NCBI GenBank assembly: GCA_025917655.1
Contig: CP084611.1
Location: 310,001 to 374,000 of the forward strand
From: Chlorella sorokiniana
Lineage: Eukaryota; Chlorophyta; Trebouxiophyceae; Chlorellales; Chlorellaceae
Length of the DNA stretch: 64,000 nt
Reading direction: 5' to 3'
Within the stretch, counting starts at the first letter, position 1, and each line of letters begins with the position of its first letter. The notes beneath the pieces were generated by a model. It saw nothing but the letters and a program-made list of their open reading frames with translations, was not told where the DNA came from and did no database searches. The position numbers were made by a program, and so were the translations under genes. Shown in pieces: positions 14,689 through 62,005 of this stretch.

Positions 14689-14725
<37 letters not shown>

Positions 14726-15080
14726 GGCGGCAGGAAGGGTGTCTATCAACAAAACGTGCAGTGCTTCCGTGGGAGGATAGAATACTGGCGGGTGTGAGAG
14801 GCAGTCGGCAGAGCCTCCTGACCTGCTGCCAGGGGGCACGGCATCGGAGCGCGGCAGCAGCCAGGCAGTTGTGTCACGGTGACCCACAACCTCCCCACTC
14901 CCCAAAACCGCACCCCCATGCTGCTGCTGTGCACCGCATTGTGCAGGCACGCTTTGATCGCGGCAGGTCGTGTGCACAGCGTGCTTGCCACGGATGAGCT
15001 GGCGGCGAGAGGGCGGCCGCAGCTCACAATGTGTCACAGGTGACCCCCTGCTGGTTGAAAGTGCCGCCGCGCGCCCCCCT

Positions 15081-15114
<34 letters not shown>

Positions 15115-22095: not shown

Positions 22096-27137
<5,042 letters not shown>

Positions 27138-29819: not shown

Positions 29820-31351
29820 GGGCGGCGACGGCTCCAAAGCCGGGTGAAAGATGGAGAGTGCACACCACGCGCGCTGTGGTTTCTGCGCGCTGCCCATCTC
29901 GCCGGCTCTCTGCTGCCTGTCCCCGCCTGTCGCCCCTGTGTATAGTACATCGCCGCTCCTCTTTGCCCCAAACTTAACTGACGAGCATGCGCCGCTGCGG
30001 CGCCTGGCCCGCCCGGCCCTGCTTTCCGAGCGGCCTTGGATTTGATACATGACGCCAGCGCTGACCTCTGCCTGCCTGCTTCAGTCCTCATTTCTCTGCT
30101 CGTTGCTGTTACCATGACAGACTTGCGGGTGCTGATCCCAAACATAAAGGCAGCAGTCGTGGTGGTCACCCCAAGCGGTGCCATGGCCTCTGAAGGTACC
30201 GCACCCAACGCGGCACAGCGCGCCACAGCGTTGCAGCGCCAGCTCGTGACAGCCACTGTCGCTGCTGGCCAGAATGTGACGAGGCCAGGCAGTAACGAAG
30301 TAAGGAGCATGGGGCAGTTGCAGGGCGCTTTCTGGCCCTGTCGACCACCCAGCATGTCAATGTCGCAGCGCTGTGCCGCCAGCTGGACGAGGCAGTGGCG
30401 GCGCCGGCGCCGGCGCTGGGGCACTTGATCTTGAATTTGGGAAGAATTTTGGCTTCTGGAGCTGTGCGGAACGCTGGGGCGGCGAGAGGGCTGCCTGCTG
30501 CCAAGGGATTGCCAGCAGAGCTTCCTGGGAGACTGGCTGGGTGGAGGCCTTCCCCTAGGGGGAGGGGCTGGGTGGAGGCCTTCCCCTAGGGGGAGGGGCT
30601 GGGTGGAGGCCTTCCCCTAGGGGGAGGGAGCTAAGCCTGGCATCGGCCGTGTGCCAGGCGCAAGCGGGTCAACGTGCGGGCCCCAGGCCGCTGGCAGTGT
30701 AGTGTGCAGGGCCTTTCCTCCCCCTGGTAGCTCGTGCTGGGGTTGCTGCCGCCGCCTGCCGTGCCCGCCAGCACACTGGAGGGCCATCAGCCTGGAGAGT
30801 GTGCTGACAGGCCCTGGCATGCCGCTGGGCCACCGGGCGCTGGTGCTGTACCTCGGTCCACACAGCGTGTATCTGCCGCTACTCTGGCGCGCTGCCCCGC
30901 TGAACCCTCGTCCCGCTTGCAAGGGGGTCCTGGCGAGTGCTGCCCAGCGCAGGGCACCCGCCATCACGGGCGGCCCTGTTTCCCACTGCTCTGCCTTCAA
31001 CAGAGGCGCACATTGCACCCAGGCCGCTGGTGCAGGTGGGGCAGGGTTGCCAGGTACTTTCCCCTCCGAGGAATCAGAGCCACCTTTATTCCTTGGTGAA
31101 ACCTCAGCCGACCGAATCCCACCGGCATACCCCAATTCAGCAGCATTCATCGAATCTCCCTGCCTATAACCCACCAATTGAAGGCGTTTTGTATGAAGCA
31201 CATGGGCTTTGGCGCCAGGAACGTCCATTGTAGGCGGGGGGTCACCTTGCCAGCTCAGCATTGACGCCCCATGAAACACCAACACCGCCGATGCACACGG
31301 TATTTCAACCAACCGTCCAGTAACAGTTCCTGCTATATCAATCACATCACC
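29820..31351. other. Spacer between the VAMP gene and family member A
   Basis: About 1.5 kb. Frames open on both strands around 30040-30430 are of low complexity and I cannot support a gene there. The stretch contains a three-copy 31-bp tandem repeat and otherwise no recognisable element. Confidence 0.4.
30539..30629. repeat. 31-bp tandem repeat, about 3 copies
   Basis: Three nearly perfect head-to-tail copies of a 31-base unit starting gggtggaggccttccccta. The core cccctaggggg is self-complementary. No coding frame is implied. Confidence 0.9.
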
Positions 31352-32876
31352 ATGCTGGCGGTAATGAACCCCACCGCCTCCTTCTCTGTGGATTTGCCCG
31401 TGGGACCACAGCCGCCGGCGTTCGACGACACACTTGTGCAGCAGATGTGCAGCTGGATGTTTGAGCGAGACGATGCTAGTGATAGCCCCGCAGGTGGGTA
31501 TGCAGGGAGCTCCCTCTCCGGACCACCAACAGCACTGTGCCTACTGCCGCCCCCAGCCTCTGGGGCCCCGGCCCCAGCTTGAGTACGTTTCCAATCGGAT
31601 GTCGATGGGCATTTTCAGCCGAGATGCGGCAGCGCAACCCGTGGTAGACGGGCCCGGCGGCAGGGTGGGCTAGGGCCAGGCTCAGCTGCCACCACCGACG
31701 GGGTTCAGTGCGCAGAACATGTCACTCACAATCATTTCATCTCGCCCCCAAGAAAGGGCCACTGAGACCCTCACCTTCGCACTCATCGCTGCAGGCTTGG
31801 AGCTGCCGGGCTGCTGGCAGCGGGAGGCCTGTCCCTCGGTCCCTCCGCCGCGATCGGCGGCGGCAAACCTCCGATCCAGCCCGCTCCCTGGCTGGCCCCA
31901 TTCCCGCCGCCGCGCACCCGCCCCGCACACGCCGCCTCCTCCTGCCGGCCATCCAAGCTACGCTTCAACCCCACCCTCTCGAGCTGCTCCACCGCCAGCT
32001 CCGAGGCTGTCTCCTGGCTGGCAGGGTGGGCGCGGCTGGCAGCAGACGGCCCCGCTGCCGCCACCAGCGCCTCCCCAGCCCAGCCAGCAGCCTGTCGCTG
32101 GACAGCGGCAGCCGCGGCGGCGCCACCTCAGCACTGCTGCACTGCGCGGGCGGCCTCGACGTGGGCAACGCCTGCGGCGGCGACCCGTGCCGCCAGGCGG
32201 CCGCCACTCGCAAGCAGCACGGGCGCTCTCTGCGGGGGCACCCCCGCTCCTCCCGCAAGCGCAGCCTGGCGGCGGACTTGGACGCAGCCTCCTGCGCCCT
32301 CCTTTCCAACAGCAGGTGGGCGCCTGCTTCGGGCCTGCCTGGGGTGGGGAGGCCGCTGGGCGGCAGAGCAGCCGTGGCTGGCCAGAGCCTGTGGCTGGCA
32401 CAAGGCGCAAGGGGGTATTGCCGGCTCACCCGCTGGCAGAAGGCGCCGCGCCCGCCCCCACCCGCCATCCCACCCCGCGCACACACACACACACACACAC
32501 CACCACCTTCCACCCACTCGCCTTCCTTTCCACTCCCTGCCGCAGCTCCCGCGCCAGCCGCAGCCGCCAGCGACTGGAGCGCCAGGCTTGCCCGGCGCCT
32601 CCCAGCCTGGGTGGCGCCGCGCCAGCAGCGCCCGCATACATGCCGGCGGATGGCGCCAGCACCAGCTCCCTTCCCACGCTGGAGCCCCTGTCAGCGATCC
32701 CGCAGCCGCTGCAGGCCCCGCTGGCTGAGCTGGCGGCAGATGAGGCTGAGCTGGCGGCCCTGGATGCCGCGCTGGCCGCCCTTGATACCGCCCCGGCCTC
32801 CTCAGCCCCACCGCCCTGCCCCTGGCAGCTCTCTGGGCCTGAGCGGCGGCGCCAGTCCATATCTTGGCTGTCGTGA
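31352..32876 (+). CDS. WLAGW-family protein, member A (unrecognised family)
   Basis: I do not recognise this family. Exons: 31352-31493 (MLAVMNPTASFSVDLPVGPQ, then VQQMCSWMFERDDASDSP), 31794-32315 and 32546-32876. Exon 2 contains SSEAVSWLAGWARLAADGPA and, in another frame, a basic ending (SRKRSLAADLDAASC). It is one base short of keeping phase with its neighbours, so a frame correction is needed. Exon 3 reads YMPADGASTSSLPTLEPLS and then the helix ELAALDAALAALDTAP, before a stop after SISWLS. The same order of motifs (tryptophan helix, basic patch, DGAST-SLP, LxAxLAxL helix) appears in members B and C. There is no signal peptide or membrane segment. A nuclear regulatory role is speculation. 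Confidence 0.65.
32484..32502 (+). repeat. (CA)n microsatellite in intron 2 of member A
   Basis: About nine CA units roughly 40 bases upstream of the acceptor that begins the last exon of family member A. Confidence 0.75.
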
Positions 32877-34947
32877 TGCCGTTCAGCTTTGGCGCACCAG
32901 CCAGCCCCTCCCTGCAAGCAATACACACTTGACACGGCCCATTGCGCTTTTCTCTTTGTGCCCTCACCTTGAGCTGGCGCCCAACCATACAAGACCACAG
33001 AAAGACAACAACTGCCTTTCTTCCCTACACACCACGCCCCCACACACGATGACCAGCGTACGTGTAGCGCTTTTTGGCAACCGCACCTCCTGTGCCTGTG
33101 TCGCCCCCCTTCGCCACGTGGCGCCCTTGGCTTCTTTTCCCTTCCCTTCACACCCTGTCAGAGGACTGTCAACCCCGCTTGCTTGTCGCCCACTTCTCAC
33201 CCTTTCAGAGAACGTACACACCCGCCTGTGTGTCACCCTAAACCTTTGTCTGGCTGCCTGCGCTCCAGTGCGCCCCTGTGTCCTACTAACTGCCGTGTAT
33301 CCATCCGTGTTGCGCCGACTGGCCGCCCTCCTCCACCCCTTGCAAGCTGTGTGTAGCGAGCTTGTGCCGCGCGCCTCTTCAGCTCCTTATTTACCATACA
33401 CTTTGAACGCCCCATTATCAACACACCCACAAGTGCACCCATTCACGGTCACACCGCTATCCCTTCCCAACTCTCAGTTCCTCCTCGCCCCATCACCCCT
33501 TGCATTCGTCATTCGACAAGCAGCCGCTAGGCTGGCTCACAAGCTGTCAGCCTTGATGTGCGATTATTTTGCATGGGCCACGCCCTCGGTCACCGCCGCA
33601 CGGCCGCTTCCACTCACCGCCCTCACACCCCCTGACACGTGCAACAACTGAGCAGAGTGCTGCTCTTGAGCATGCTGTGCACGCCCGCTTTCGTTCCCTG
33701 CTGAAGCAGCGTGCTTTCCATACATGTCGGCGCCGCAGCGCGCACCTTGCCCGCCGCTGCGCTGCCTCGCATGCACCACATCGCGTCTTCTTTCACCCTC
33801 TTCTTCTCGAAAAATCTTCCATTTGATTACCTGCATCCTCACTGCATTGTAAACTAGCATGCCCAGGCGGAGGCATGGCAAGAGCGTGCGGGCGAGTGGT
33901 CCCCCGGCTCAAGCCACCAATCGCCGCAACGCCGGCGCCAGCGAATCCGGTGGGCGAGCCAGCCGCAGCCAGCGCCTTTTTCAGCGGCGCCCGCCTGTGA
34001 GGCCAGCTGCGCATAATTGATGGGTTACACGTCGGGGGTAGGACGAAAGATAGACAGAGGCGAAACGATGGCAGGAGGCCGCTCTGATCGTGGGGCGTGG
34101 CCACGGCGCTTCAAGGGCATGAATTTAGATGGGCATGGTAACTGCATACAACATGGATGGGTAGGTCTGCCAATCTTGCGTGCATGGCTTGCTGGGAAAA
34201 ACGGTGGGCGGGGGTGGGGCGGTCACTCAGTAAGACAGCGTAGCGAGGGGCGGTCTGCGGGCCGACAGTTGCGGCGACAAAGGCGAACAGCCCACAACGT
34301 GGTGCTGGCGCAGGGTCGGAGCTACAAAATCGAGGGGAAGCAGCCCATCCGAGGGCGTTCTGTACAAGGGGAAGAGTCCAGCAGGCGGACAGCGAATACA
34401 AGGCGGGGCAGGGTGGCTGTGGCTGAGCAAGGAGGGACCGCCAGCCGCCGGGAGCCACCGCACAAGATGAGGACGGGAGGCAGGAGAGGAGCTGGGTGAG
34501 TGGGCCGTATGTGTGTGTGTTGTGCTCCGTGGTGAGGGGCGGCATGCGTTCCAGGCTGGCCGGCAGAGAGCCGCAGAATGGGCGGCCCACTTGCCGGGCA
34601 CCGAGTGATGGGAGGAAAGAATGTGCTGTGGTCAAGCAGTGCAGCATGACGAGGCGAGGCAGGGCAGGCAATGCTGAATCAGGTGTGGCATGAGCTAAGC
34701 AGGTGTGAAAAACATGGAGGCAGGCGGTATGGAGCAGTGAGGCGCCTGCCGGGCACCAAACCAGCTGCACAAGCGGCCTGAATGCGGGCCCGGCTTTTGC
34801 GTTGTACGGAACAGGGTAGTGAGAGGGGGCTACCTGTGCGGCTTGAATGAAATGGAAGGCCCAAGCGGGGGCGGCGACAGTTGGCCGCAGCAGTGGGGGA
34901 TCAGAGGGCGGGAGGCAACAAGAAAAACACGCTGCGCAGCTCGCGCC
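32877..34947. other. Convergent spacer, family members A and B
   Basis: About 2 kb between two genes that end toward each other. The frame open on the plus strand to about 33650 has no conserved residues and is probably 3' untranslated sequence. A TGTAA element lies at about 33848-33852. No repeat, RNA gene or mobile element was recognised. Confidence 0.4.
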
Positions 34948-36068
34948 TCAGAACCACAGGCTGGCGTGCGGCAGGGCGGGTTCGCAGTCCAGCTCAGCGA
35001 GCGCAGCCTCCAGCCCGAGGGGGTCGTCTTCGTCTGGCGGGTCCCCCGCCCAGCCCTGCTCCTCAGGCCAGTCTGGGCAGCACGGCACCTGCTGCACCTC
35101 CACCACAGGCACCAAGGCGGGTGTGCAGCCAGCATCCGCCGCCGCCGCCGCCACAGCAGGCAGCACGGTTGTGCTGGCGCCGTCGGCCACACGGCCGCCA
35201 CCCACGGGGAGGCTGGGGCGGCCGACGCGGCGGGCCTGCCGCCATCGTGGCGGGGACGCGTGTACTGGACAGATGACCTGCCCAGGGAAAGAGGCGCAGG
35301 GCGGCGGTTATCGCGGAGGATGGGGGCGACTGAGCAGCGGGGCCCCGCCCGGGCCGGGCGTCTCCGCAAAGAGGCCAGCCCAGCAACGTCGGGGGCGCCA
35401 GCCTGCCCCGGTGCATGCAACAGCGGAGCCCGCAGGAGAGAGGCCCTGCAGCGCACTATCCAACCGGTCTGCTCACCAGCTGCTGCACCTCTGGAAGTCG
35501 GCGGCTGGGTCGTGCTCAGGGGCAGACGCGCGCTTCCGCAGGGCGGACGTTGGGCAGCGGCCGGGGCTGGGGGTGAGAGGGTCCGCGCCGCAGGCTGCCA
35601 GGACGGCGGGGCCGCTGAAGCTGCTCACCATGCCGCTCTGGCTGTTGAAGCTTGCCGGCCTGGACAGGGCTGACAGCGGCGGCGGCGCGGCGGCGCAGCC
35701 GGCAAAAGGTCCGCCCCAGCAGTTGCCACAGGCGTGCGCGCTGCTGGGAGCACCCACCGCGCACCCCTGAGTGGTGGCCAGCCGCGTCCACCCTGCCAGC
35801 CACGACAGAGCCTCAGAGCTGGTGCTTGTGCTGGGGGAGAGGGGGCTTGGAGGTCCCAGCTGCACTGCTGAACTGGGGGCACGCTGGCAGGGGGCGCACG
35901 CGGAAGGGGCCACTTCCAGGCTGGTCGGCCAGCTTTGGGGGCTGCCGCTGTCCGCTTCCTGGCCCTCCAGGTGCCACTGCCTCTCCTCTCCTGCGGCGAC
36001 AGGAGTGGTACCCCGGGGAGGTCGAAGGTAGGGACGGCAAAGTTGCAGTCAGCCAACGGGCAGGGCAT
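34948..36068 (-). CDS. WLAGW-family protein, member B (unrecognised family)
   Basis: The probable start is ATG 36068 (MPCPLADCNFAVPTFDLPGV). A frame change is needed before the tryptophan helix TSSEALSWLAGWTRLATTQG near 35790-35840. That exon ends around 35480 at a GT donor. The last exon, from about 35273 to the TGA at 34948, reads VADGASTTVLPAV, then an acidic stretch DWPEEQGWAGDPPDEDDPLG and the terminal helix GLEAALAELDCEPALPHASL. The DGAST-LP motif and the terminal helix match members A and C. The internal sequence is Ser/Pro/Ala-rich and poorly conserved. Function unknown. Confidence 0.6.
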
Positions 36069-37439
36069 TTGGCCCCCTTCGGAAAAAGCGGACAAAAGCG
36101 ATGGGATGCCTGTCCGGTCCGCTACACATGTTGATTACAGCTTTTTGAGAGCCGCAGAAGCGGCGGGGCGAGGGGCTGGGCAGGAGATGGCATTCATGCC
36201 TTCTAGCCCGGCTGCTCCCTGGCTCCCTTTCCCCACCTGTCATCGTTGAAGAACTGACAAATCGATCCAGCCAAGTGCGGAGCTCTGGCGTGTCGTCTTC
36301 CCCGAGCTGTGCCCGCACACGTGTGCACACAACAGTATCGCAAAAATGGCTCCGCACCTCAGGCCAAGGGGTACACGGCATTTCGCCGTGGGAATGTGGC
36401 CCAGGCAGCGGAGCTCAGGATGGCACCTGCAGGGTTGGGGATGCTTCCCATGCTGTGAACGACGCGCTGCCGCCCCCTCAGCATTCCAGCTCCTGGCGGC
36501 TGAAGGGAGCAGTCGCAGCAGCTGCAGGGACACCACCAAGTACATTGAGAGAATGAAAATGGTAAGAGTTGGCCGGTGCACCCTTGAGCCGTAGCTCAAG
36601 CGAGCCACAGTTGGCTACGTAGCCAACGGCCCTGGCAGCAACGTGGGGGCATGGACAGAAGGGTGGCCATACTTGAGAGAGGGGGCGCTGCAAGGTGCAA
36701 ATCTTGTGCGGGCTGCTTGGCCGCCAGACACCGCGCCCAGATCGCACCCCAGCTTTCAGCAGCCCGGCGGTGGGCGCAGTGTAGCATCCAGCTGAGCCAG
36801 CTGAATCCAGCAACGCTGGATCCAAAGCGGCGGAGCGCCAGAATGGCAGCATGCAGGAGCCACTTCCAGCCATGGCTGGGCTGCCAGCCTTGGACCCTTC
36901 ACTGACCCTCCGCTGCCGCTGTAAGCCTGGCAGGCTGATCACGCCTGTGGCAACAGCCTGAGGAAGTGCCTGCTGTACACATGTGTGATTGTGCGCTCAG
37001 GTGGAGCCGGAACGCCATGCCAAGTATACAGCGTCCGCATGCAGCAATTTCTGGGGCTGCAGTGGGCAGAGGAGGCAAGAGGGCAAGGCAGTGCGGGCGT
37101 CTGCGTGCTGGCAGGCGGGCATTTATGACTTGAAGGCTGCAAAGCACACTCTTCCAGGTCCCTGCAGTGCTTGTTCTTCCGGCGCAGCATGAAACGCGCG
37201 TGGCGGAACTGCCCAAGTGAGCGGCCATGGCGCAAAAAGCGCGCCAAAAAGCGTAACACAAGCCGGATCTGGAGTGCTATGGAGCAAACCACGCACAGCA
37301 TCGCAGGGCTGCCATGAAAGTACCGTGGGGAAGATTGCACGTATCTAGTGCTTGCAGTCTCCCCCGCTCTGCTCAAGCCATCTCTGTGGATTCTTCTCTC
37401 ACATTGTACCCAGTCCGAGCCTCCAACCCGCTGGCAGTC
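36069..37439. other. Divergent spacer, family members B and C
   Basis: About 1.4 kb between the starts of members B (minus) and C (plus). Composition is more balanced than in the genes. Short frames exist on both strands but show no recognisable domain. Both promoters are expected here by layout. Confidence 0.35.
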
Positions 37440-38755
37440 ATGTGTGTCGGCTCGCAAACGGCGGTTTGCTTGGTGCACCCCGCCCGTGGCGACTACAGCC
37501 CTCTTTCGCAGAAAATCGCTCACATGGGCGTGTCGCACCTGCAAGATATGAGCTTCTGGCAGCAAGCTGGTGAGGACCGGAAAGCCGGGCGCGGCGTGGA
37601 CGCCCTGACTGCCCCCGTTTCGCACTTTTTGAAGCTCCTGAAGGTTGCAGAGTCGGCCCGCGCTACCCCGCGCCTCCTCGCGCCGCCAAGCAGGGGCCTC
37701 AGCATCCCGAGCTGTCTAACCTGTCTCACTCCGCTTGCCCCTCAACCGCCTCGCAGATGTCCACCCCGCCCATGCGCTCCCCGCCCGCCCCTCCGAGCAG
37801 CCGTCGGCGGAACTCATGCTGGGCCAGGGGCCACCGCCAGTGCGCCTGCGGCCCGCTGCAGAGGTCTATGCCACCCCCTCCATCACCCTGTCAGCCTGCT
37901 CCCCTGAGCACCAGAGCAGCTGGAGGGATACTGCGAGCCCCCAGCGGTCTGAGGCCCTGTCGTGGCTGTCGGGCTGGGCCAAGCTGGCCGCCGTACAGGA
38001 CGCGGCCTCCTCCGATGGCTGCCCCACGCCGCCCCAGGGCGCTCAGCAGCCGGCCTCCCACGCCTGGGGCGACAGTGCCAGCCTCGCCGACAGCGGCACC
38101 TCCAGCCCCGCAGCGCTGGGTGCTGCCGTCGACCACACGCCCCGCAAGCGGCGCGCCGCGTCTGACGTGCCTCAGCATGCATCCGCCGCCCACTGGGCCC
38201 GTGCCCACCCTGCGGCCACCGCGCCGTCCAGGTGGGTGGGCAGGAATGGGGGTCAGGCGCTTCCCACCGTGGTCTTGCTGTGGCACGGAAGGGCACATCG
38301 CCGCCGCCGTCTCCGCGCTGTGTATGCCACACTGCAGCTCCCGCACCGCCGCCTCCAACAAGCTTGCGTCCTCCTGTGTGCGCAGCGCCCGCCGCGACGC
38401 ACCCGCGCCCGGGTGTCCCTGGACTTCGCCCGGCAGCTGCCCTGCCCCTGCCCGCCGCCGCCTACGACCCCTCCGGCGACGCCGCCAGCGTCTCCTCGCT
38501 GCCCGCCGTGCAGCCACGGCTGTGCGGCCCGCCCGCTGGCCGCACTGTTTCGCATCCCGGGTGGCTGCCGAGGGCCGAGTGGGGCGCCGGCAGCGGCAGC
38601 GTGCCGCCCGCTGTCCCCCGCCACTGCCGCTGGAGATGGGCTTGGACAACCTTGATGCCGACGACTTGGAGGCGTTGGATGCCGCCCTGGCGGCCCTGAA
38701 CGACGCCCCCCCCCCCTTCCTGCCCCAACTCGCTTCCTGCCCCGACTGGCTGTGA
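37440..38755 (+). CDS. WLAGW-family protein, member C (unrecognised family)
   Basis: Exon 1 runs from ATG 37440 (or 37524) to 37569 and includes MGVSHLQDMSFWQQA. Exon 2 is 37757-38231 and keeps one frame throughout: VYATPSITLSACSPEHQSSW, then the helix RSEALSWLSGWAKLAAVQD, then a basic patch HTPRKRRAASDVPQHASAAH. Exon 3 is 38386-38755. It contains AAYDPSGDAASVSSLPAVQP in a second frame and ends in the first frame with LDNLDADDLEALDAALAALN and then SCPDWL before TGA. Two compensating single-base errors in exon 3 would join them. This is the cleanest copy of the family in the window. No known domain was recognised. Confidence 0.7.
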
Positions 38756-39962
38756 ACAGCGGGACTCATCGCGGAGAGCCGGGTGCTCGCCGCGCAGCCC
38801 TCCCCTCCCAATGAAAACCTCCTTGCGCTGCCTGCAGCAACCTTTGGCAGCACTGCATGATCCCCAGTGATGGCCCGCTTGACCGTGAGAGCCTGCCCGC
38901 TCCTCCCCAGGCCCCTGTTTGGGCCCCTCTTTTACCCTGTTGTTCTTTGTGTTCTTATCGACCTACCCGGGAGCGCGCGCTCCCTCCTGTACCCACAGTT
39001 CCTACCCGGTTGCAGCCCAGATGAAGCCAGCTGTTCCCCCACCCTCCCCCTGCCGTGGCACTCCCTTTGCCGCTGCATGGGTACCGCCCTTAGCTTGGTT
39101 AGCGCGTGGCGGCTGTTGCATCCTTTCCCATCGCCTTTTTGTGACACACCGCGAGATTCCAGCACGTTGTGCTGCGCCGCTTACTGCGATCCATCATGTG
39201 ACCGACCACCTCCCTTTCCAAGTTTGTTGCCTCTCCTCTTTCTAAACCAGACGTATCTAATGCATCCCCTTGCCATACGCATGCCCCTCCCTTTCAACCG
39301 CCGCTTGTCAATCCCCAGCGGTGCACACGACTGCCGCTCCTGGCAGCGCCTGCCTGGCAGCGCCTGCCTGCGCTGCTGCGCCCGTCCTTTCCAGGCCTTC
39401 ATCTCTTCCTCAACTGTCTTTCCCCCAATCGCGATCCATGAGCAAAGCCACCTTCGAACTATGCATGCCCCGACGCTCCCCAACCCACTCGCCAACCGTT
39501 GCTCCCAGCTTCTCGCCTGGACTCCATGCCTCACCCCCGCCTTGCCTTGCCCGGCATTTCCGGGCCATGCGCATCAGCGAGCAACGCCGCTGAGCGCTCC
39601 CCACCCCTCACCCCCACCTGTGCTGCCAGCTGCAGCCCCAGCCAGGCTGCTGCTGCGAGTGCGCATCCCACCAAGCTTCACCCGTGCTCCTCTGCACACC
39701 ATTTCGTTCATTTGTTCAACTAAATGATGGGACTCCACCCACCCATCCTTTGCAAAAACACTCTTGCCTCAAGATTCGACTTTTAGTTCTTCGCCCACCC
39801 GTATTTAAGAGCGCAGGCCAAGCCACTGAGCCCGCTGCCGCCGCTGCAGTGCGGTGCCCGCGGGCTGCCTCTTTGGCACGGTTTCCTGCATTGTTTTGGA
39901 AGCCTGCCAACTTTTCCCCTTGTGCCTTGTGGCACATGCTGCTGCTGGCCTGCGTGTCGGAT
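38756..39962. other. Convergent spacer, member C / YTH gene
   Basis: About 1.2 kb, pyrimidine-rich on the plus strand, lying between the stop of member C and the stop of the YTH-domain gene. It should hold both 3' untranslated regions. No coding exon is supported. Confidence 0.4.
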
Positions 39963-42900
39963 TCACTTGTAACTGCCCACACCGCAACTCGAACACACTT
40001 CAACCCATGGGGGCATGCCAAGATGAGCGGAAGCAGGAGGCGTCAGATCCGCTGGGTAGCTGCGCAGCCGGCGCCCGGCCCCAGCAAACGTGTTGGCCTG
40101 CTGCTGCTGCTGCACGCGCAGGCTCTGCTCCGCGATGCCCGTTCTAACTGGGCGCCGCTGCTGCGCCGCCGCCGCCCGCGCCGCGCGGTAATGCTGCCGT
40201 GCCAGCTCCGCGTCGAAGGGCAGCCCCGCCTGGGCGGACGCTCTGCGCACGCAATTGGGGCGTGGCAGCAGAGGAAGAATGAAGCAGGGGGCAGCCCCGG
40301 GTGCGCAAGCGAGGGTTGTTCGTTTGCAGGAGGCTGGCGGCGGCTGAAGGAAGCCAGGGGGCAGCGGCAGGCAGCAGGCAGTGCAGGAAGGCGGTACAGA
40401 CGAGCAGCAGCTGTACCTCTTGCAGTACTCCACGTACTCCTCCTCCCCCATGGCGGCCAGGTCGGGCGGCGCGGCGCCGCCGTCAACAGCCGCCCCCGCC
40501 TCGCCGCCGCCGCCGCTCGCGCTCTTCTCAGGCGGCGCTTCGATCGCCAGCGGGCGCCGCCGCCGTTCTCCTTGCCCTCAGCAGCCCCGCCGCCGTCCGC
40601 GCCGCCAGGCTTGTCGCCGCCGGGCTTGTCGCCGCTGCCGCCGTTCTGCAGCTCTTTGAGTTGGTTGAAGCGCGCCACGTACTCCTCATACGTCATGCGC
40701 AGCAGGTCGGGGCGGTCGTCTCGGGGGCGAATCGGCGGCGGGGGCCCGCCGGGGGCCCTCATAGCCCCTGCAGGCAGGCAGAGCGGCGCGGCGGGGTGGA
40801 TAGCGGGGAGCGGGGAGCGGCGGCGGGCGGGAGCAGGCCGGGTGGGGCTCAGACTGCAAGCGGCGGCGCCGGCACAGCGACGGCTCGCGCTGCGTCAGCT
40901 CAGCGCCGCCCCCGGCCAGTCAGCAAGCTGGGGCAGGCCTTGCAGGGAGGGCATGGCAGCAGGCAGAGCGCAGCGCCAGCCGGGCCCCAGCGGGCCCCCA
41001 GCGGGCCTCAGCGGTACCTCACCTGCCCCAGTGCTCGGGGGCGGAGGGCCACGGTCGTACCGCCCTCCTCGGTCAAAGGGGCGGTCAAAGTCCCGGGGCG
41101 GGGGCCGTCCCTGCGCGGAAGCAGAACACAAGCGTGTCGGCCGCCGTGCGCACAAGCACGGCTGCAGCCAGAGCCACGCGGCAGAGGGCCGCCAGCGAGC
41201 GGCTGGCAGTGCGGTGCGGCGAGCGCGGGAGCGCCGCGGGTGGCCCGGCAGGGGCGGCTGCGCGCCTGAAGGGCGGCGGCGGCCCATCCCTGCATGGGGC
41301 AGGGGTGCGGCGGCGGCGCACAGTCAAAGCAAACGGCCCGACGGAACCAGCAGCGGCCGGCGGGGGCTGGTCGGGCAGAGCGCTAGCAGGTGGCACCGCA
41401 TGCTGGGAACAGGTGCATGGGGCCACAAAGAGGCATCCACCTGAAGCGGGGGCCGTCGTAGCGCCCGTGGTACCGCTCCCGCTCCCACTCGTACCGCCCC
41501 CGTCCGCCTCCCGCTCCCGCTCCCGCCCCCGCCCAGCGCCGCCGCCAAAGCCGGGAGGCAGCCCGTCAGCCGTCGGAGATGGCTCTGACGCCTTGCCAGC
41601 CTCGGGCTTGACGGCGGCCTCGCCGCTGCCGCCAATGCCGCTGCCGCCGCCGGGAGGCGGGCCGCGGCGCCGGGCGGCCGCATGCCTGGCATCATTCCTA
41701 CGAGCGGAGCGGGACCAAGGGGGTGGCCGAGCAAGCCAGCAAACTGGCAACAGGGAGGCAGGCGGGGGCGGGCGGCGGTCACCAGCATGCGGCGGGCATC
41801 GGCGGCAGCATGCCGAGTGGTCGGGACCGCTGCTCAGCATTCAGGGACAGCATGGCCCCCTCACCCTGCAGGCTGCCCATCATCATGGCCGCTGCCATAG
41901 GGTTCATCATGCCTGCGCAACAGAAGGCGGCCGGCCGTATATGTGTGTGTATGCATGTGTGTGTGTGCTCAGAACAGAGCACAGGCCAAAGAGAGCTGCG
42001 AGGCGCCGCGGCGGGGAGAGGGGAGCCTGTGAGGCGGGCGCCTCCTGGAAAGAAGCAGCGGCGCCGCAACCGCAGCGCCGAGTGGCATGGTGGCCCCAGG
42101 AAGGGAGCGGCAGAGCGGGCGAGGAGAGGCGGGGGGGGCCTCTGGGTGGGGGGGGGAGGGAGCGCACCCGCCATCATGGGGTTCATCATCGAATTCATCA
42201 TGTTCATGGCCATCAGCGGGTTCATGCCCTGCACAGCGCGCTCAGCGTGCACAGCAGCGGGGCAGGGTGTCAGAAAGGCGGCGGCGCAGCCGGAGGGGGC
42301 TGAGGCTGCCGGCCGCAGCAGCGAAAGGCAGGCCGAGCTGCATTCCTTGCGCAGGGCGGCGCGGGGCTCATGGCTGCTGCTGCTGCGGCAGCTTCCGAGA
42401 AGCCGCATCGCACCATGAGCATCGACGGATCCGCCATGCCCATCAGGCCCTGCCCCACCAGCGCAGGTGGCCCCCAGGGTGCCCCCGCCCGGCGGCCGTG
42501 CGCCGCCGCCGCCGCCGTCGCCGATGCCGCCGTCGTTGCGGGGTGAGGGCTTGGGGCGGTGGGTGGGTGGGGGCGCACGTTCCAGCAGGGACAGCAGCTC
42601 CTCTGCCACGCTGGCATCTATTTCTGCGGCACATGGCAGTACGGCAGTACCGACCAGGTCAAGAAAAGCGGGTTGGGGGCACAACAGCTGCATGTGGCAA
42701 TGGCACGCTGTGCTGAGGCTGCCTGGTGGCCGCGCGGATCTCTCCCCTCCCCTTCCCCAGCAACAGCGTGGCACCCACCTGTGCCATCCTTGCCCGCCCG
42801 CACCGGCTGCGGCGGGTCGCTCAGCGGGTTGCTGCAGAGCAGAAAGAGGGCACAGAGCAGCTTGCTTGACGTGGTTTACATGCGTCAAGGGGGCAGACTG

Positions 42901-43716
42901 ACAGCTGCTGCCCCTTCAGCCCTCGAACACAGAGCTCGGACCGCCAGATATCAAAGTTCAAAGAAGGAACCGGATGCCGCAGGCAAGGGGTGGAACATGA
43001 ATCGAACTACACATCACTCACACAAGGTGCTCGGCCTCCGCATACGGCAGGTCGGCGCGGCGGATCCACTCGATGCGGCAGGCGGGCAGGGAGCCGGCCA
43101 CCGACAGCTGGCGGGCCTGCAGGGGAGTAGCAGGACGCGGGTTCCCTTGCTCAGGGAGACCGGCTGTAGAGTTGGCGGGTTCTGTGCGCCTAAATCCAAC
43201 CGGTGTGGTCTCTGGCTGCGGCCAGAGCGCTTGCAGCAATGGTAGCGCGCTGGTGACGTGTTGGAAAGGCGGCTGCAGCGGGCACTAGGAGTAAATAGCG
43301 GGCCCACCGTGGCCTGGTCGGCTTGGCACAGCATGCGGGCGGCTCCCTGGAAGCTGCCGGATAGAGAGATGGTGAAGATGAGGGTGACCGGCTCGCCTGC
43401 GGCGGGACAGTACCCGCCAGAAATGCAGGGAGCAAGGCTCAGCAACGCATTCACACGCGGCGCCGACCACCGGTGATGCAGCGGCAGTCGACAATCGGCG
43501 CGAGCAGTCGCAGGGGTGCTGCGTGGCAGTTCTCAGCAGCTGGCTGAGGGATCCAGCAGCGAGCCCAGCTGGTGTTTCCTGTGAAGCCGCCGCACCTGTA
43601 GCAAACGCCTCGTTCAGCCGCTCCACAGCCCCGTAGCCCACCGGCCACACGCAGGCGGCGGCGGCGCGCTCAAACAGCCGCTGGTCGGCCACTCGCATCA
43701 GAAAGTAGCGGGGCAT
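39963..43716 (-). CDS. YTH-domain RNA-binding protein (m6A reader type)
   Basis: YTH domains bind N6-methyladenosine in RNA (family knowledge). The ATG at 43716 opens straight into the domain: MPRYFLMRVADQRLFERAAA, VWPVGYGAVERLNEAFAT, then TLIFTISLSGSFQGAARML, CRIEWIRRADLPYAEAEHLV and NPLSDPPQPVRAGKDGTEID. This order matches the plant CPSF30-YTH and YTHDC1 type. Exons: 43596-43716, 43308-43396, 43022-43116, 42779-42831, then from 42623 leftward; the last two are 40417-40767 and 39963-40242. The C-terminal half is Met-rich (MNPLMAMNMMNSMMNPMM), Arg/Glu/Gly-rich (YEWERERYHGRYDGPRFR) and ends with helices (MTYEEYVARFNQLKEL, EEEYVEYCKR, FDAELARQHYRAARAAAAQQ). The first cage Trp is present; the second was not found. 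No zinc fingers precede the domain. Middle exon joins are uncertain. Confidence 0.8.
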
Positions 43717-43816
43717 GCTGGGCTTGCTGCGTGGCTGCTGCGATCAAACACGGTGCGCGGCGGTCAGCAGCAGTCGACGCTCGGTCGACTGCCGAGCTTT
43801 CTTCCCGTCTGCCAGC

Positions 43817-44363
43817 TCAGCCCCAGGCCGGCGTGAGCGCGTAGTTGACCACCAGGCGTCCGTCCACGCCAAACGCGTCGTGCAGCACCGAGATGCGCTC
43901 TTCAGGGAGGGAGCAAACGCCTCCCTGAGGTACACAAACTGCGAGGGCGGCGGGAGATAGCCAGCGTGGTGATCACCTGAGCAGGGTCGGCACTGCGCAA
44001 GGCAGCTGCAGAGGGCAAGTGCGGCTGGCACTGGAGGGGGCCGCGGCAAAGGAGCGGATGCAGCACGCGGAAGCGCCACAGGCAGGGCGGCGCACCACTT
44101 GGTCCCTGCCCAGCTTCTTGCGCAGGAAATCAACCAGCTTAGCGAAGCGTTCCTGGCCGTCGATCTGCAGGAGGACAGGAGCTGCACTGGACTACGAACG
44201 AGCAGCGCAGCAACCTGCCGCTGGCAGCGGCGGCACTCTAGACGGGGCGGGTCACCCAGAGGCCGGCTACCTTGACTTTGTTCTGTTTCAAAATGGGAGC
44301 GTCCCCCGTCTGCTTGAAGAGAATAATCACTTTCGTGTCTGTCGGCGCTGCTTGCTCGGCCAT
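43817..44363 (-). CDS. ATG12: ATG12, ubiquitin-like autophagy protein
   Basis: Ubiquitin-fold modifier that is conjugated through its C-terminal glycine to ATG5 and promotes ATG8 lipidation in autophagy (family knowledge). Exons 44271-44363, 44099-44164 and 43817-43938, GT-AG introns. Exon 1: MAEQAAPTDTKVIILFKQTG and APILKQNKVK. Exon 2: IDGQERFAKLVDFLRKKLGR. Exon 3: FVYLREAFAPSP, then LHDAFGVDGRLVVNYALTP and the terminal AWG directly followed by TGA. Exon 3 is 122 nt where 123 are needed; the GGG at 43905-43907 (CCC on the coding strand) seems one base short. Corrected length is 93 residues, the usual plant size. The next gene on the same strand starts only 100 bp downstream. Confidence 0.95.
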
Positions 44364-44782
44364 CAGTGCACGCCAAGCTCACAGGCGCTGCGTGGCCATC
44401 TCAACGATTTGTGATTGCGATGCAGTGCAATGTGGGCCCCGAAAGGAGCCCTTTTGCTCAACAGGCAGCACTTGTACTTGCGGCGTACTGTTACGTGTGT
44501 GCGCTTGGTGGATTGGCATCATGTCCAACTAATAGGGCGTTCTGTGCTATCACATTGTGGTCTGCGGGGCGCTGGAGGTTGTGTGCTGCTGGGCAGTGAT
44601 CGCAACAAGCCCTTTGATCACAATTACGGCTTCGGACGACTAAAAATACTTTTGTACTGCCTCGCTTTCTGTCGAACACGAGGAAGCGGCTGCACCTGAC
44701 CTTCCTTTTCCGACGGCGAGCCCATCACCGGCCAGCGGCGCACAGGGCGCCTGGCGGCTGGGTGGGCTGCGAAGTAGCGGAT
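44364..44782. promoter_or_regulatory. Divergent spacer, ATG12 / DHX16-type helicase
   Basis: 419 bp between the ATG of ATG12 (minus) and the ATG of the helicase gene (plus). It is the lowest-GC patch nearby, with AT-rich words around 44636-44660. A shared promoter is inferred from layout only. Confidence 0.5.
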
Positions 44783-55358
<10,576 letters not shown>

Positions 55359-55998
55359 GGCAGTTGAAAGACATCGAGGCTGAGGCAGTTGGACGAAATT
55401 GGCGTCGGCAAGCAGGAGGGACACATGCCTTGCAAGGATTGAGTGAGAAACGAATATTAAGTGATGATCAGGACTGATGCAATGAGGATCTGAACCAAGG
55501 AGTAGGGCAGACATTGAAAAGAATGGCCTGGCTGGAACCAGTTGCGTGCAGGCTGGGACGCGTTAATAAAAAAACTGGAGAGCAGGTGCACTACAGAATG
55601 GGGAGGGTGTGGGGTGATGCCGGGAGGAGGGAGGGCAGAATCAGGAGGGCAAGTTTGTTGGGATGCGTGGTTTTGGGCTGGGCATCTGCTGCTGCTGCCT
55701 TGAAATGAAGAGTGCGGTGAAAGAAGCTAACTCAGAATCAGAACCATGCCAGCGACGTGCGGCAGCCCGCCTGGCCGGCCGTGCGCAGCTGAGCAGCAGT
55801 GAGCTTGGGCGTCGCCGCAGGGGGCGACGGCAGCCGGCGGGGCGGGGGCTACGGCCAGACGCACTGCAGGGCATGCTGGCATGATCCGCAGCTCATGGCT
55901 GCAGCAGGGGGAGGCAGGCTGGCAGTGGGTAGTTGCCTGAAAAGCTTGGGTGCAGGCCGGCTGCACTGACCGCATTGGGCCCAGCTGCGGGACATCTT
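55359..55998. other. Convergent spacer, helicase / member E
   Basis: 3' flank of the helicase gene. It holds an imperfect direct repeat (gaggcagttg at about 55357 and 55380) and an AATAAA-like word near 55564-55572. No coding exon is supported. Confidence 0.4.
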
Positions 55999-56566
55999 TC
56001 AGGCACTACACTGCGGCCTCTCTAGCAAACAGTCCCTGCGATCAGCTTGCCTGGGGGAGGCAGAGCTTCGAACATCAGTTGGGCCGGGTGGGCAGCCGAC
56101 AGGCCTGCGGCAGCAGCTCTGGTTGAGAGGGCTGGCAACACGGCGGAGCAGGTGGATGAGGGGGCTGGGCTTGCCAGCCGCGGCAGCAGGCTGCAACGGC
56201 GGTGCAGGCGCCGCCGTCACATCGCAGCCCAGCTGGCGTGCCAGCCGCTGCCAGCCCGCCAGCCAGGCCAGCACGTCGTCCGCGCAGGGCGGGGGTCGCT
56301 CAGCGCGCGTGCGGTTCACCCGCCGCCGCTTGGGGAGCTGCCGGTGCGGCCGCCGGACATTCGAGAAGGGGGAGGCTGGAAAGCTGTCCCGTGGCAGCAA
56401 CAGGCCCCTTGCGGTGCTGCTGCTCGCTTCCGAGCCTGTCGGCGTGGTGGCTTGGTGTTGCAGCGGCGGCGGGGAGCCTGGGGGCCGGCAAGGGTTGGAG
56501 GCGGTACGCGCCCCTCCGCCTCCCACAGCACCGGCTCCCTCGCAACCAGGCCCAGCGACGTGCAGC
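55999..56566 (-). CDS. WLAGW-family protein, member E (partial or degenerate)
   Basis: One exon is readable, from an acceptor before 56566 to the TGA at 55999. It contains KRRRVNRTRAERPPPCADDV and the tryptophan helix DDVLAWLAGWQRLARQLGCD, followed by a Pro/Ala-rich tail. The DGAST-SLP motif and the terminal LxAxLAxL helix of members A-D were not found downstream. No ATG opens this exon, so a first exon must lie further right, perhaps between 56600 and 56950, where short Arg-rich frames exist. It may be a truncated copy, or its end may be hidden by frame errors. Confidence 0.4.
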
Positions 56567-56949
56567 CTGCACACGGTGCATGGAGGGTTTCAGGAGGATT
56601 GGAGGAAGAACAGCATGCTGGCATGAGGCCACGCCGATGGGCAGCAGGTGGACATGAAGCGGCTTGCCACGCTCAAAAGGGCTGGGTGCCGTGTCCCGGC
56701 GCCGGCAGCCAAAGGCGCTTCCCCTGCCCACCGTCCGCGCTCCTTGGGCGCTTCGATGCTGATTCAGGCGGCTCCAGCCAAGCGGCGGGCGCCAAAAGAA
56801 GGACCTCCGAGAGGCTGGGGGCCCAAGCTCTCCGCGACTGGGAGGCGGCGGAGCCCAGGCCTGCTGCATGATGCTTGAAATGCAGGGGGAGACGTGTGCA
56901 ACTCTCGATAAAATGTGCAGTGATTACTGGGTCTCGGATGGGACACGAG

Positions 56950-58457
56950 AACCTGGACCCACCCAGCGCTGTGGGTTCCCTGCCGCTACGGGGCGGCGGC
57001 CCCCTGGTAAAGGATCGCCCCGTATCCGGTGCGCCGCACGCATCTGGGAGGCCTAGACAAGGATTTTGACGGTTATTTTCGGCTGCTGAGTTCCCGGGGT
57101 GGCTCCCTTTCCTGGTATGGGCGGCGCCCTGCCGTTGCGCCCCCTCCCGCGCTGACAGTGGCCAAGATTCCTGTCTGCCCCTGGTTGATTTGCTGCCGTG
57201 CCCAAGGTTTTGGCAGGCTTGCTCAAATCAGAGGCTTTGGGTGGGCGTTGTGATGGACTTGACAGCGCTGCAGGGGGCTGGCCGCTCCGCGGGCAGGCGC
57301 TCCGCCGCCACAACTAGTGCAGCAGCATGCATGGGCACATATGTTGCCCTCCAAAGGGACACAACACGCTGCCGCCGCTTGAAGTACAGCAATCCAGTAA
57401 AGCCTTTCAATCTGCTGGCAGATATTTTGTCTGGCCCACCGTGTTGCCACGAAATTATGAGACTGCGGATGTGGCTAAGGGGGCGCCAAAGAGGCACCGA
57501 CCAACTGGCACGCACCCTGCGGCATGCCGCACATGAGCGGGGTAGCATCAGCTGCCAGCCGTCGTTCTGTGGCCAGCCCTGCACCTAACAGGTCGTCGTT
57601 TTCCAACTGTGCCACTACAAACGGATCTCTGACTGTGCAAAAGGATGCAAGGCCCTGCCGTGTGATGAAGGCTGGCACGGAGGGGCAGCGGTGAGCGCCG
57701 CTGCAGGCCTGCGTGGTTGTGGCAGCCAGCGCAGTGCAGCAAAGGGGTCTAGGGGCGGAGAGGACGGTGAACTGTTACATAAAGAATTGTACTGTGCAGG
57801 ATGCAAGCGAATCGGACTGCTGCACAGGTCAATTCGTGTGTGTGTGGCAACAGGCAGCGCCACGCGACAGCAGAAGGCTGCCAGTAAAGATGGCTTGGCG
57901 TGCCGTGGCGACAGCCGCTGCCGATGTTTCGATGCGGCAGGACAGTTCTCATCATACTTCAAAACGCGTCAGCGGTACAGCGGTCAGGGGGAGCAGGCGC
58001 AGAGCCACAGTTCATGTGAGGTGGGGCCGCAGTTGCGGCGGCAAAGGGGGCAGGAGCTCATGCGTTGGTCAGTGGCTCATCAAGCTTGGGGGTTCTTGAA
58101 TGGAGGGTAATGGCAGGAGGGTACGCAGGGACAGGGGGTATTCTAAAATCGACCATCATCAAAATTAATTGGAGGGAAGCTGAGGAAGGCGAGATTGGAG
58201 CAGAGATTGGGGAAGGGGAGTTGCAGTGCTCTGGCAAGCTGCATTGATACCGGCAGGGGCAGACGATCAAGCTTATTACTGAGACGTTGAGGCAGGAGAG
58301 AGGGCAGGAAAAGAAGCAATGAACTGTGCAACGTAGGCTGTCGCATGCCCCCAACCAGGGTGGCGGGGCAGGCGGGGCCGGCAGAAGACGGCAGCTAGAT
58401 TCTTGGCTTTCTTGGCTGTGAGTGGGCAGGGAATTCCTTGCCCAATCGCTGCTGGGG
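56950..58457. other. Spacer between members E and D
   Basis: About 1.5 kb with mixed composition and no exon I can support on either strand. It should contain the 5' region of member E and the 3' region of member D. Confidence 0.35.
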
Positions 58458-59528
58458 TCAGAAGCAGACCAGCGCGAACGGGGAGGGCAGCGGCGGGCAT
58501 TCGTCCAGCAGCGCCGCCAGCGTTGCATCGAGCTCCGCGGCGTCTTCGGAGGCCGCCTTGACCGTGGATGCGGGCAGGGCGGGGCCCGCCTCTCGCGGCC
58601 GAGCACACACAGCGCGACCCCGGCATGGCGGCAGGGCTCCCGCATTCTGGCAGCACGCAGAGGGGGCAGCATCCGGGCGGCTGCTCCTGGGAAGAAGGAG
58701 AGGCGCCGGGCTGCGTCGCCGCCAAAGGGGTTCCGCGGCTGCAGCGAGGGCGCCGGGGCTCCCAGGGCATCACCTGAGAGAGCCTGCAAGAGGATTGTTG
58801 GGATAGAAGACACCAGTGCATGGTTTCAGCACGCCAGAAGGGGAGACGGCAAGCGTTGGAAGCAGGGCAGAGGGGGCAGCGGGAGGGGCCACCAGCCCCG
58901 TGGGGGAGCTTGCCAGCCGCGCCTGACCTGCCCCTGTGTCGCCGCTCTGCCGCAGCATCCACGAATGGCATCGGCTCTGACAGGGCTGGGCTGAGCCGTG
59001 GCCGGCATCGCTGTCGCGGGCGCTCCGGGCTGCTGTGCGTGGCGGAGTCGGCGCAGGCGCCTCGCTCCCGCTTCCGCAGTGCCGGGGCTCCAGAGCGACA
59101 GCGCTGCTGTAGCTCTCCATGTAAAAGGGGCTGACTGCGGTGGCGGCTGGCAGTGCGGCCAGCCGCGCCCAGCCCGCAAGCCAGGACAGGGCAGGGGAGC
59201 CGGCGGCGGCGGGCTCTGCCTGGGGTGGGGGCCGCTCTGGTGTGACCGCAGCGGCAGGGCCGGGATGCGCCGCGCTGTCACCCTGCTCTGCCCCAGCGTG
59301 TGTTCTGCCGAGGGGAGGCAGCTCGACAGCTGGGCTGAAAGATTGAAAGGGGACTGTTCGCTGATTTGGGAGCCCAGGGACTGCTGGGAGGGAAATTCTG
59401 TGGTCAGGCCTGCAAGGGTGGTGCCCGCGTGCCGCCATGTCATCGCTGCAGATGGCGCCGTCTCGGGTGCAGTCCGCCAGCCTTCCAGCCGCGCATCTGC
59501 AGCGTATGGCGCAACTTGCGGGCTGCAT
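58458..59528 (-). CDS. WLAGW-family protein, member D (unrecognised family)
   Basis: ATG 59528 opens a frame that contains the tryptophan helix AGSPALSWLAGWARLAALPA near 59150-59210, preceded by a Pro-rich stretch. A donor is likely near 58930. The last exon begins after the acceptor at 58774 and reads GDALGAPAPSLQPRNPFGGD and AARRLSFFPGAAARMLPPL. In a third frame it then reads VKAASEDAAELDATLAALLD followed by ECPPLPSPFALVCF and TGA at 58458. The terminal helix ELDATLAALL matches members A-C. Frame changes inside the last exon are required. No known domain was recognised. Confidence 0.6.
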
Positions 59529-60768
59529 AAGTATGGTTGGCGTGATGGTTGCTGCCAGTGAAAGCTGGCCAGCGCAGGTGTAAGCCCTTAGTCACGACGC
59601 GAGCGGTCGTGACGGGAGTGCCGCCGCCCGCGATACCCCCCTTCCGCCAGCCCTTGCCTGCTTCGCCGGCGAGCGTGCCGCTTCCCACCACGACCCAGCA
59701 GCTCTCGACACAGTCGCCAGCAGCAGCAGCAGCGCTAGCTTGCAACGAGCGTCCGGTTGCGGAGGGCCCCAGACAGATGTGCCGCATAGCGCGCTCCCAG
59801 CCGGTAAGAATGGAAGTTTCTTGCAGCTGCGAACTAAAAGAGCCCGAGACGGGGGCTTCAACCCGGGGAAAGAGGTGTGTCCGGTGGCGGACCCTTCCCT
59901 CATGCATGCGTCACGGGCACCATCACCACTGCCCCCATGCACGGCGGACCACGGGATTGATTTATCAGCTGAAACGGCACTGTGCTCCGCATTACAGGGT
60001 TTGCAGGCTTAAAAGGCAGTTTGCACGCCGTGGGGGAGGCAATGAAGCGGCACATGCAACGCAGATGGAAGGCGGCGGTCAAGACCGCTGAGTCAGCAGC
60101 AGCAACGTTGCTGCCTGGTGGGGTGGAAAAGGGGCGGCCTGCGTGTTTGGAACAAGTCGGCTGCAGAGTTGGGACTGCAGCCGGGCCAGTGTATAGCATA
60201 ACAGATAAAGGGGCGAATGAACTCTCGGCGGGGCATAGGGGCCCGTCGTTCACGGCTGCTGCTCAAGAGGCGTTCAGAGGAGGCCAGTTGCGGGCAGTAT
60301 CAAGTGCCAAGCTCGTGCTAGACAATGAAAGAGTAAGGCAGTGGTCAAAGGGAGTGGCTGCGCAAGGTATGCATGCAGTTGCGCAGCGTAGCGATCAAAG
60401 GTGGGGCGCAAAACTGTGGCCGGCAGAAGGACAGAACAGTGGCCGCACTGCTGCCATACATGGGTGGCGTGACCTCCCTCCTTCGGAAGGAGGATTCACG
60501 CAAATTCAATCAGGTTTGCAGACGTTCTAAGGGAGAAGGGGCGTTTATTCTGGCAGGTGAAGGGCGAATTATTTTCGGGCGGGCAAGCTGAAGCGACAGA
60601 AAGAGCGGAAGACAGCTTGGCGTGCAGCACAATGGCGCTACCTGCTGTGGAAAGCTGAAAGAGCGAGAGCGCAAAGGTGCAGTTCAGGAAGATGTATTCA
60701 CACGACCAGAAAAGCATGGGCGGTGTGTGCAAGCCGCCGAGCGGCCTCAGCGCGCCCGGGCAGGGCCT
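59529..60768. other. Spacer between members D and F
   Basis: About 1.2 kb. Frames open on both strands around 59550-60090 show no conserved block. It should hold the promoter of member D and the 3' region of member F. Nothing else was recognised. Confidence 0.35.
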
Positions 60769-62005
60769 TCACAGCATGGCCAAGCTGCCGCCATCCAGCA
60801 GTGGCAGGCCCCAGTCCTCGTCGACGTCCTCCCCAGCCTCCTCTCCCGCCGTGGCTGCAAAGCTCGATTCGAGCGACAGAGGCTGGGGGTGCTCCAGTCC
60901 AGGTCAGCGCTGCTGGAGGGCCAGCTGCCGGGTTCTGCATCGCCCGACAGGGCGGCGAGGACGCCGTCTGCCTCCCAGGCCAGCTCCAGGGACAGAACAG
61001 CCTGCGGTGCCCCTGCTGCCGCCGCTTGCCCCACCGGCGCAGGCTGGAAGCTGCCGGCGGGCGGCCAGGCGGCGCCCCAGCCGAGAGCGGCGGTGCGGGC
61101 GGCGAGGGCGGCGGGGAAGGGGGCTTGCATTGGCGCTGTGGGCAGGGGTACAGAGCCCAGGCCGAGGCTCCAGCTCCCGTTTGGGGACACCAGGTCACCA
61201 AGGTCCTGGCTGTTTTGGCGGGCGGGCCTGTGCTCCAGGCACATGCGGCGGTTGCGGGCAGCTGCCTCTTCCGTGTACACCTCCCTGCAGCCGGTTGCAA
61301 TGGATCGGAGCAATGCATCAGCCTAGAGCAGCACTCCAGCAGGTGCTGCGACAGATGCGGCGGCTGGGGGCGTTGGGCGGGCAGCAGGTAGCAGGGGCCT
61401 CACCCTGTGGGGCCGCGCTTGCGTGGGTGGTGGGTGGCACGTGCCACCTGAATGCTTCCTGCCAAAGCACCGCCCCTGGCCCATGCGAAGTAGGCTTTGT
61501 CTTTTGCCAGGGCGCCCCAGGCCGCCAGCCAACACTCCAGCCCGTTGCCTGCCGGGGCGGCCCGGCAGGAGGCCTCGGACGGCGAGAAAGGCGGCGGCGC
61601 TGCTCGCACATGCTGCTGCGGCGTCAGCGGCGGAGGCGTTGGCAGCCGCGACGGCAGAGGTGCAGAGCAAGCTGCATCGCCGGTCTCCATGAAGTTCAGT
61701 AGGGAGGAGGGCTTGGGCACTTGCACTGTAAGCACAGCGGCAGACTTTGGGCCTGCAGGAGTCTGCGTGCCCGCTGCGTCAGAGCCACGGAGGGCCGCAG
61801 GCTGGGTGCGGCGGCAGGCGGCGTGGGTGGGCTTTGAGGGACCCCGGTTTGTTTCACCGTCTGCAGTGAAGCCCATCGCGGGGCAAGGGGCAGAGTAGGC
61901 GGGCTTGAGGGAAACCGAGGACGGGGACCTCAGCCAAACTGCTGCTCCACACTCACCCGTCTGATTTGGCTCTTGAAAACTGCCATAATAGTCAGAAGCT
62001 TTCAT
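60769..62005 (-). CDS. Possible divergent WLAGW-family protein, member F
   Basis: ATG 62005 opens MKASDYYGSFQEPNQTGE and continues to a tryptophan helix GNGLECWLAAWGALAKDKAY near 61490-61550, similar in spacing to the WLAGW helix. A second exon starts after an acceptor near 61290 and reads REVYTEEAAARNRRMCLEHR and LVSPNGSWSLGLGSVPL. It ends in a strongly acidic tail (EEAGEDVDEDWGLPLLDGG) before the TGA at 60769. The G run at 60885-60889 seems one base short between DLDWSTP and the acidic tail. The LxAxLAxL helix is absent, so membership in the family is tentative. The acidic tail with Trp and Leu resembles a transcriptional activation region, which is only a suggestion. Confidence 0.5.

Follow-up and report, generated by a model that had tools for sequence, protein, structure and literature searches.

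A family of unnamed paralogous genes sharing a tryptophan helix, six of them clustered, in Chlorella sorokiniana

We analyzed a stretch of 64,000 nucleotides of the Chlorella sorokiniana genome (hereafter the window; C1:310001-374000, where C1 is a 5.25-Mb contig, one of the 15 that make up the 38.8-Mb genome). An earlier model annotation, made from the letters of this DNA and called here the sequence-only reading, had pointed to six genes, A to F, each encoding a helix with a WLAGW-like motif (the W-helix). These genes are part of a real, unnamed family of nine or more paralogues, six of which form one cluster. The earlier proposal that they are diverged, unrecognised paralogues was borne out by their clustering, by an excess of synonymous (pS) over nonsynonymous (pN) differences, by a second shared motif and by the absence of any accepted Pfam match. 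The window is eukaryotic in character: its genes are intron-rich, and one of them encodes a mitochondrial-type ATP synthase beta subunit.

The W-helix and the C-terminal helix

Each of the six helix peptides announced for the window was found in exact form, in an open frame and at the place given for it. The first tryptophan codon of the motif starts at 32015 (+) in A, 35802 (-) in B, 37963 (+) in C, 59183 (-) in D, 56265 (-) in E and 61531 (-) in F. The two ends that had been given for the region as a whole correspond to start codons, 31352 being an ATG in the likely first exon of A and 62005 the point from which the F model starts with its exon 1. The helices are the following, with the evidence for each in brackets.

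32000..32041 (+): A, W-helix SEAVSWLAGWARLA (exact peptide, leave-one-out profile, pS/pN)
35776..35817 (-): B, W-helix SEALSWLAGWTRLA, then TTQGCAV (exact peptide, leave-one-out profile, pS/pN)
37948..37989 (+): C, W-helix SEALSWLSGWAKLA (exact peptide, leave-one-out profile, pS/pN; helix in AlphaFold)
59157..59198 (-): D, W-helix SPALSWLAGWARLA (exact peptide, leave-one-out profile, pS/pN)
56239..56280 (-): E, W-helix DDVLAWLAGWQRLA, then RQLGCDV, and preceded by basic PKRRRVNR (exact peptide, leave-one-out profile)
61505..61546 (-): F, weaker W-helix NGLECWLAAWGALA (exact peptide, genome pattern match; not significant alone)

The motif is rare, and its occurrences are clustered. A six-frame translation of the window contains W[LIVMF][ASG][ASG]WxxLA six times, as compared with a mean of 0.02 and a maximum of 1 in 200 second-order Markov windows, which served as the chance control. 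Genome-wide, a 26-base DNA pattern for WL[AS][AG]WxxLA gave 13 matches, six of which are copies A to F, within 29.5 kb, while the reversed DNA pattern, used as control in the genome-wide pattern searches, gave 0. Because the pattern was derived from copies A to F, these figures gauge their rarity and clustering, not their discovery. A short WLAGW-like pattern is common, with 901 matches to a loose 15-base pattern across both strands of the genome, many of them in GGCTGG repeats.

When each copy was scored with a profile from which it had been left out, A, B, C, D and E reached 37.5, 41.8, 34.6, 28.6 and 21.3 bits, respectively, and each was outranked only by the other five copies. All five scores exceeded the best ones that the full nine-member profile gave in 20 first-order Markov windows (6.2-16.5 bits). 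F scored 10.4 bits (rank 7), within the random range. Its helix alone is not significant, and its membership therefore rests on its position in the cluster, its basic stretch and its acidic tail. The sequence-only reading had considered A-D as well supported and E and F as tentative; in the profile scores A-D and also E stand out, and F does not on its helix alone.

Over the 14 codons of the helix, pooled pS was 0.44 and pN 0.19 for A-E, and 0.49 and 0.30 for all nine members, a descriptive comparison in which certain pairs involving F or G (see below) showed the reverse. The helix consensus is [SD]xALSWLAGWxRLAxxxGCxV, a longer motif, LAxxxGCx[VA], being common to G, H, B and E. The frames read contained a single W-helix for each protein.

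Further evidence came from the C-terminal helix, which had previously been mentioned with no sequence given and which proved to be real. The pattern L[DE]AxL[AE][AE][LF], devised after the tails of A-D and H had been seen, had four matches across all six reading frames of the window, one each at A, B, C and D, and none in the 200 Markov windows. The matches are on the same strand as the W-helix, 745 (A), 789 (B), 712 (C) and 651 (D) bp beyond its first tryptophan codon; the corresponding tail of H, LDAALEAF, lies 649 bp beyond its tryptophan. The stop codon follows this helix directly or closely (tail consensus LDAxLAALxDxxP), and the tails of A-D carry a net charge of -5 to -8 over the 20 residues scored. 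Thus, an acidic, hydrophobic, helix-prone end is present in A-D and H. The rest of each protein had been described as low-complexity and divergent; it is indeed largely diverged, except that this acidic helix is shared by A-D and H and a basic stretch by some members.

32760..32876 (+): A, C-terminal helix LDAALAALD through the stop codon (pattern match)
34948..35013 (-): B, C-terminal helix LEAALAELD through the stop codon (pattern match)
58458..58532 (-): D, C-terminal helix LDATLAALLDECP through the stop codon (pattern match)

Members outside the window

Protein searches with single members linked the copies to each other and to new places in the genome. With A as query, B, C and D were retrieved with expectation values (E) of 0.006-0.023, and with C as query, A and B were retrieved at 0.02 and 0.12. 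E retrieved B (0.006) and a new place, G (0.05); G retrieved another new place, H (0.02), as well as E (0.10); and H retrieved G (0.008). A search with the helix consensus retrieved seven of the nine members (G, B, E, H, A, C and I) and nothing else, missing D and F. The likely members outside the window are the following.

C1:1493506 (-): G (protein searches, genome pattern, helix consensus)
C1:4905575: H (protein searches, helix consensus)
C4:1957552: I (pattern and helix consensus only)

Eight of the nine members are thus on contig C1 and I is on C4. The description of the family as local holds for the six copies clustered within 29.5 kb and not for G, H and I. No further copy was found in the 10 kb on either side of the window. 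Counts from the genome protein and pattern searches are lower bounds, and nine members is a minimum.

The five other matches to the 26-base pattern (C1:135449, C2:4679651, C4:291269, C4:896084 and C11:1689173) were judged by eye to be non-members, and C9:1313825 (E 0.136) was not accepted after inspection of its context. A relaxed pattern gave 37 matches, as compared with 5 in the reversed control. Seven of the 37 were known members or earlier matches, and none of the 23 whose contexts were inspected was member-like. No relative was found among viral contigs (16 pattern matches) or prokaryote genomes (32), which says little about algae.

Gene models, predicted structure and domain searches

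Gene models were built with a small splice and codon model trained on neighbouring genes, the shortest intron allowed being 85 bases. In the unforced models, C joined helix, basic stretch and tail, and D had the tail with a shortened helix. Forced models, in which the conserved pieces (helix, tail and other blocks) were rewarded, had three or four exons for B, C and F and were rougher for the others, several with poor splice sites. All these models are approximate and partly forced, and should be taken as hypotheses. The predicted exons and associated features are listed below.

31352..31493 (+): A, likely first exon (MLAVMNPTASFSVDLP...WMFERDDASDSPAG), ending in a strong donor, CAG|GTGGGT (score 7.8)
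32042..32310 (+): A, apparent frame change past the helix; the downstream frame favoured by codon usage holds SSRKRSLAAD
34948..36381 (-): B, three-exon model (36381-36237, 35864-35477, 35212-34948), in which the helix, the tail and two further blocks were forced; exon 2 holds the basic stretch LRKRASAPE
37524..38755 (+): C, best unforced model (37524-37569, 37757-38231, 38338-38375, 38514-38755), with helix, basic stretch TPRKRRAASD and tail LDAALAALN at 38675 (tail pattern); the tail region contains residues LDAALAALNDAPP
60769..62005 (-): F, model forced on helix and tail (62005-61957, 61752-61404, 61284-61035, 60891-60769), with a weak last acceptor (1.2), basic HHPRKRGPTG and acidic end EDVDEDWGLPLLDGG

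The predicted first exons of A (31352-31493 +) and B (36237-36381 -) both have DDT followed by W[ML] (CSWMFERDD; RTWLDRFVSS), possibly another W motif, weaker than the first.

An RKR-like basic stretch is found inside the models of five of the nine members (B, C, E, F and G), ahead of the helix in E. R-x-S sites occur near the basic stretch in A, C and E. The frames of G (C1:1491001-1496500, minus strand) contain seven R-x-S-x-[DE] sites (RTSVE, RTSHD, RASYD, RASLD, RRSID, RASMD and RGSLD), six of them inside the G model, and all fit R-x-S-[hydrophobic or H]-[DE]. From this sequence pattern, it is possible that G is a multi-site kinase substrate.

When exon 2 of C was modelled in AlphaFold from an alignment with the other five copies of the window, the prediction contained just one helix, spanning the motif (residues 55-79). 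The mean predicted local distance difference test score (pLDDT) was 60.0, reaching 83 for residues 61-70, with low confidence elsewhere.

The statement that no named family has this pattern withstood profile and domain searches in Pfam, NCBIfam and PDB, which gave no convincing match. There was no Pfam match for 10 open frames or for the nine helix-bearing frames, and five tails and seven models gave only weak matches of single members. ACC_epsilon (E 0.0066, the best of these weak matches), RsmI_C, Lzipper-MIP1, DUF4813 and SpoVM each matched one member, weakly and unshared by the others, and were rejected. Cut8 (PF08559) was also set aside: it matched C only (residues 144-241; 12.5 bits, E 0.11), below its gathering cut-off of 26.2 bits. 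This nuclear proteasome tether (Cut8 / Sts1) scored weakly with one of seven sequences, the other six having no match. A possible resemblance of F exon 3 to an SBP-type zinc finger or bZIP was dropped, the F model having no Pfam match. NCBIfam gave one match (E 0.2), and neither the helix profile nor the C model had a match in PDB. The string 'WLAGW' was not found in the open literature searched; the family may still have been published elsewhere.

Elsewhere in the window, the mitochondrial-type ATP synthase beta gene (about 22400-27100, -) has many short exons, one of which was checked against PDB, and a 31-base unit is present in three exact tandem copies at 30535-30628. Judging by eye, we take the gene at 3686-7586 (+) to resemble agmatine deiminase, that at 12415-15298 (+) an RCC1-repeat protein, that at 29121-29815 (+) a VAMP-like protein and that at 46032-54017 (+) a DEAH RNA helicase.

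Possible function and alternative explanations

As judged from their sequences, the proteins are probably mostly disordered and built around short conserved pieces, most of the rest having diverged. The docking helix of p53 has F-x3-W-x2-L spacing, and acidic transcription activators use short amphipathic docking helices. By analogy, the W-helix would dock on a folded partner via its W-x3-W-x2-L face, the basic stretch would be an import signal making the proteins nuclear, and the acidic tail would recruit the transcription machinery. A basophilic kinase could switch import or binding via the R-x-S sites, which in G are spread throughout. From nuclear location, docking and recruitment taken together, we propose that the proteins are transcription co-regulators or adaptors. 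That they are disordered nuclear regulators of this type, docking by the W-helix and acting through the acidic tail, is suggested by their composition and by the general properties of activation domains; we find it plausible, though short of probable. The fuller version, a new family of phosphorylation-switched nuclear adaptors (W-x3-W-x2-L helix plus acidic LDAxLAAL end) that would have arisen within a single algal lineage and multiplied in one cluster, the rest of the chain being free to diverge, appears rather unlikely.

Several observations weigh against this picture. The W-helix has a charge of -2 to +1 and is thus near neutral, unlike the classic acidic activation helix. No DNA-binding domain, known co-activator domain or other domain was found above noise in Pfam, and the proteins are therefore not assigned to any transcription-factor family. 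RKR-like strings arise easily in GC-rich frames; those of A and D are in another frame, that of I lies in a frame outside the model, and no such stretch was seen in H. No C-terminal helix was found in E, and the ends of F, G and I are acidic but of other sequence. Unforced models of A, B, E and F skip the helix. In A, the codon signal switches frame at most about 50 bases past the helix (32040-32090), leaving no space for an intron of at least 85 bases; the assembly may contain an indel here, the gene may have decayed, or part of its structure may have been missed. Single-member searches between members were marginal (E 0.006-0.12), and I as query retrieved itself only, which makes it the least certain member.

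The family could be an offshoot of known green-lineage regulators that has diverged, its domain having been overlooked through short exons or wrong models. The models are indeed approximate and partly forced, and HMMER is weak on short, low-complexity exons, but Pfam showed nothing above noise for 10 frames, nine helix frames and seven models, the best score being that of Cut8 for C, below its cut-off (12.5 versus 26.2 bits), and we consider this explanation unlikely. Less likely still is an amphipathic W-helix that binds membranes or lipids, in proteins that coat an organelle or lipid droplet. The helix is rich in tryptophan, with a mean hydrophobicity of 0.03-0.56 and a moment of 0.19-0.50; however, G, H and I have low moments (0.19-0.23), and a conserved W-x3-W-x2-L face with an acidic tail would seem to suit protein docking better. 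Similarly improbable is a role as cell-cycle, degradation or kinase adaptors, that is, as carriers of degrons or docking motifs rather than transcription regulators. The disordered, motif-based build and the many possible phosphosites of G would agree with such a role, for which the specific indication is the weak Cut8 score alone; no systematic search for docking or degron motifs was made.

A family like the pyrenoid Rubisco linker seems extremely improbable. A disordered protein with a short helix has the general build of the Chlorella linker, CsLinker, which in the available part of its description is disordered with short, repeated RbcL-binding helices (residues E169, R171, E172, F173, E175 and R179; PMC11570498). 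We ruled this candidate out on the same partial account, in which the CsLinker helix is of the E/R/F type, not W-x3-W, and copy number also differs (PMC11570498): the present frames have a single W-helix and no repeats, and the C-terminal helix is of different sequence. Finally, the helix sequences might not be protein-coding and result from chance or GC-rich repeats. GGCTGG repeats do yield many of the 901 WLAGW-like matches and unforced models mostly skip the helix, yet 6 of the 13 specific matches are within 30 kb, with none for the reversed pattern, the second motif is in register and there is a synonymous excess, making this explanation very improbable.

A tandemly expanded, unnamed, disordered family is not unusual as a kind of thing. 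If the proposal of nuclear co-regulators or adaptors is true, this one would be a compact example of a gene family whose only common ground is short docking motifs, and which ordinary domain searches miss. It would also provide nine natural variants with which to compare which helix and tail residues matter, and an algal genome would gain candidate regulators that are as yet unnamed. The proteins differ from acidic activators in that their W-helix is not acidic and no DNA-binding domain was found. They are like them in their disordered chain, in the i, i+4, i+7 spacing of aromatic and aliphatic residues in the helix, and in their acidic helical end.

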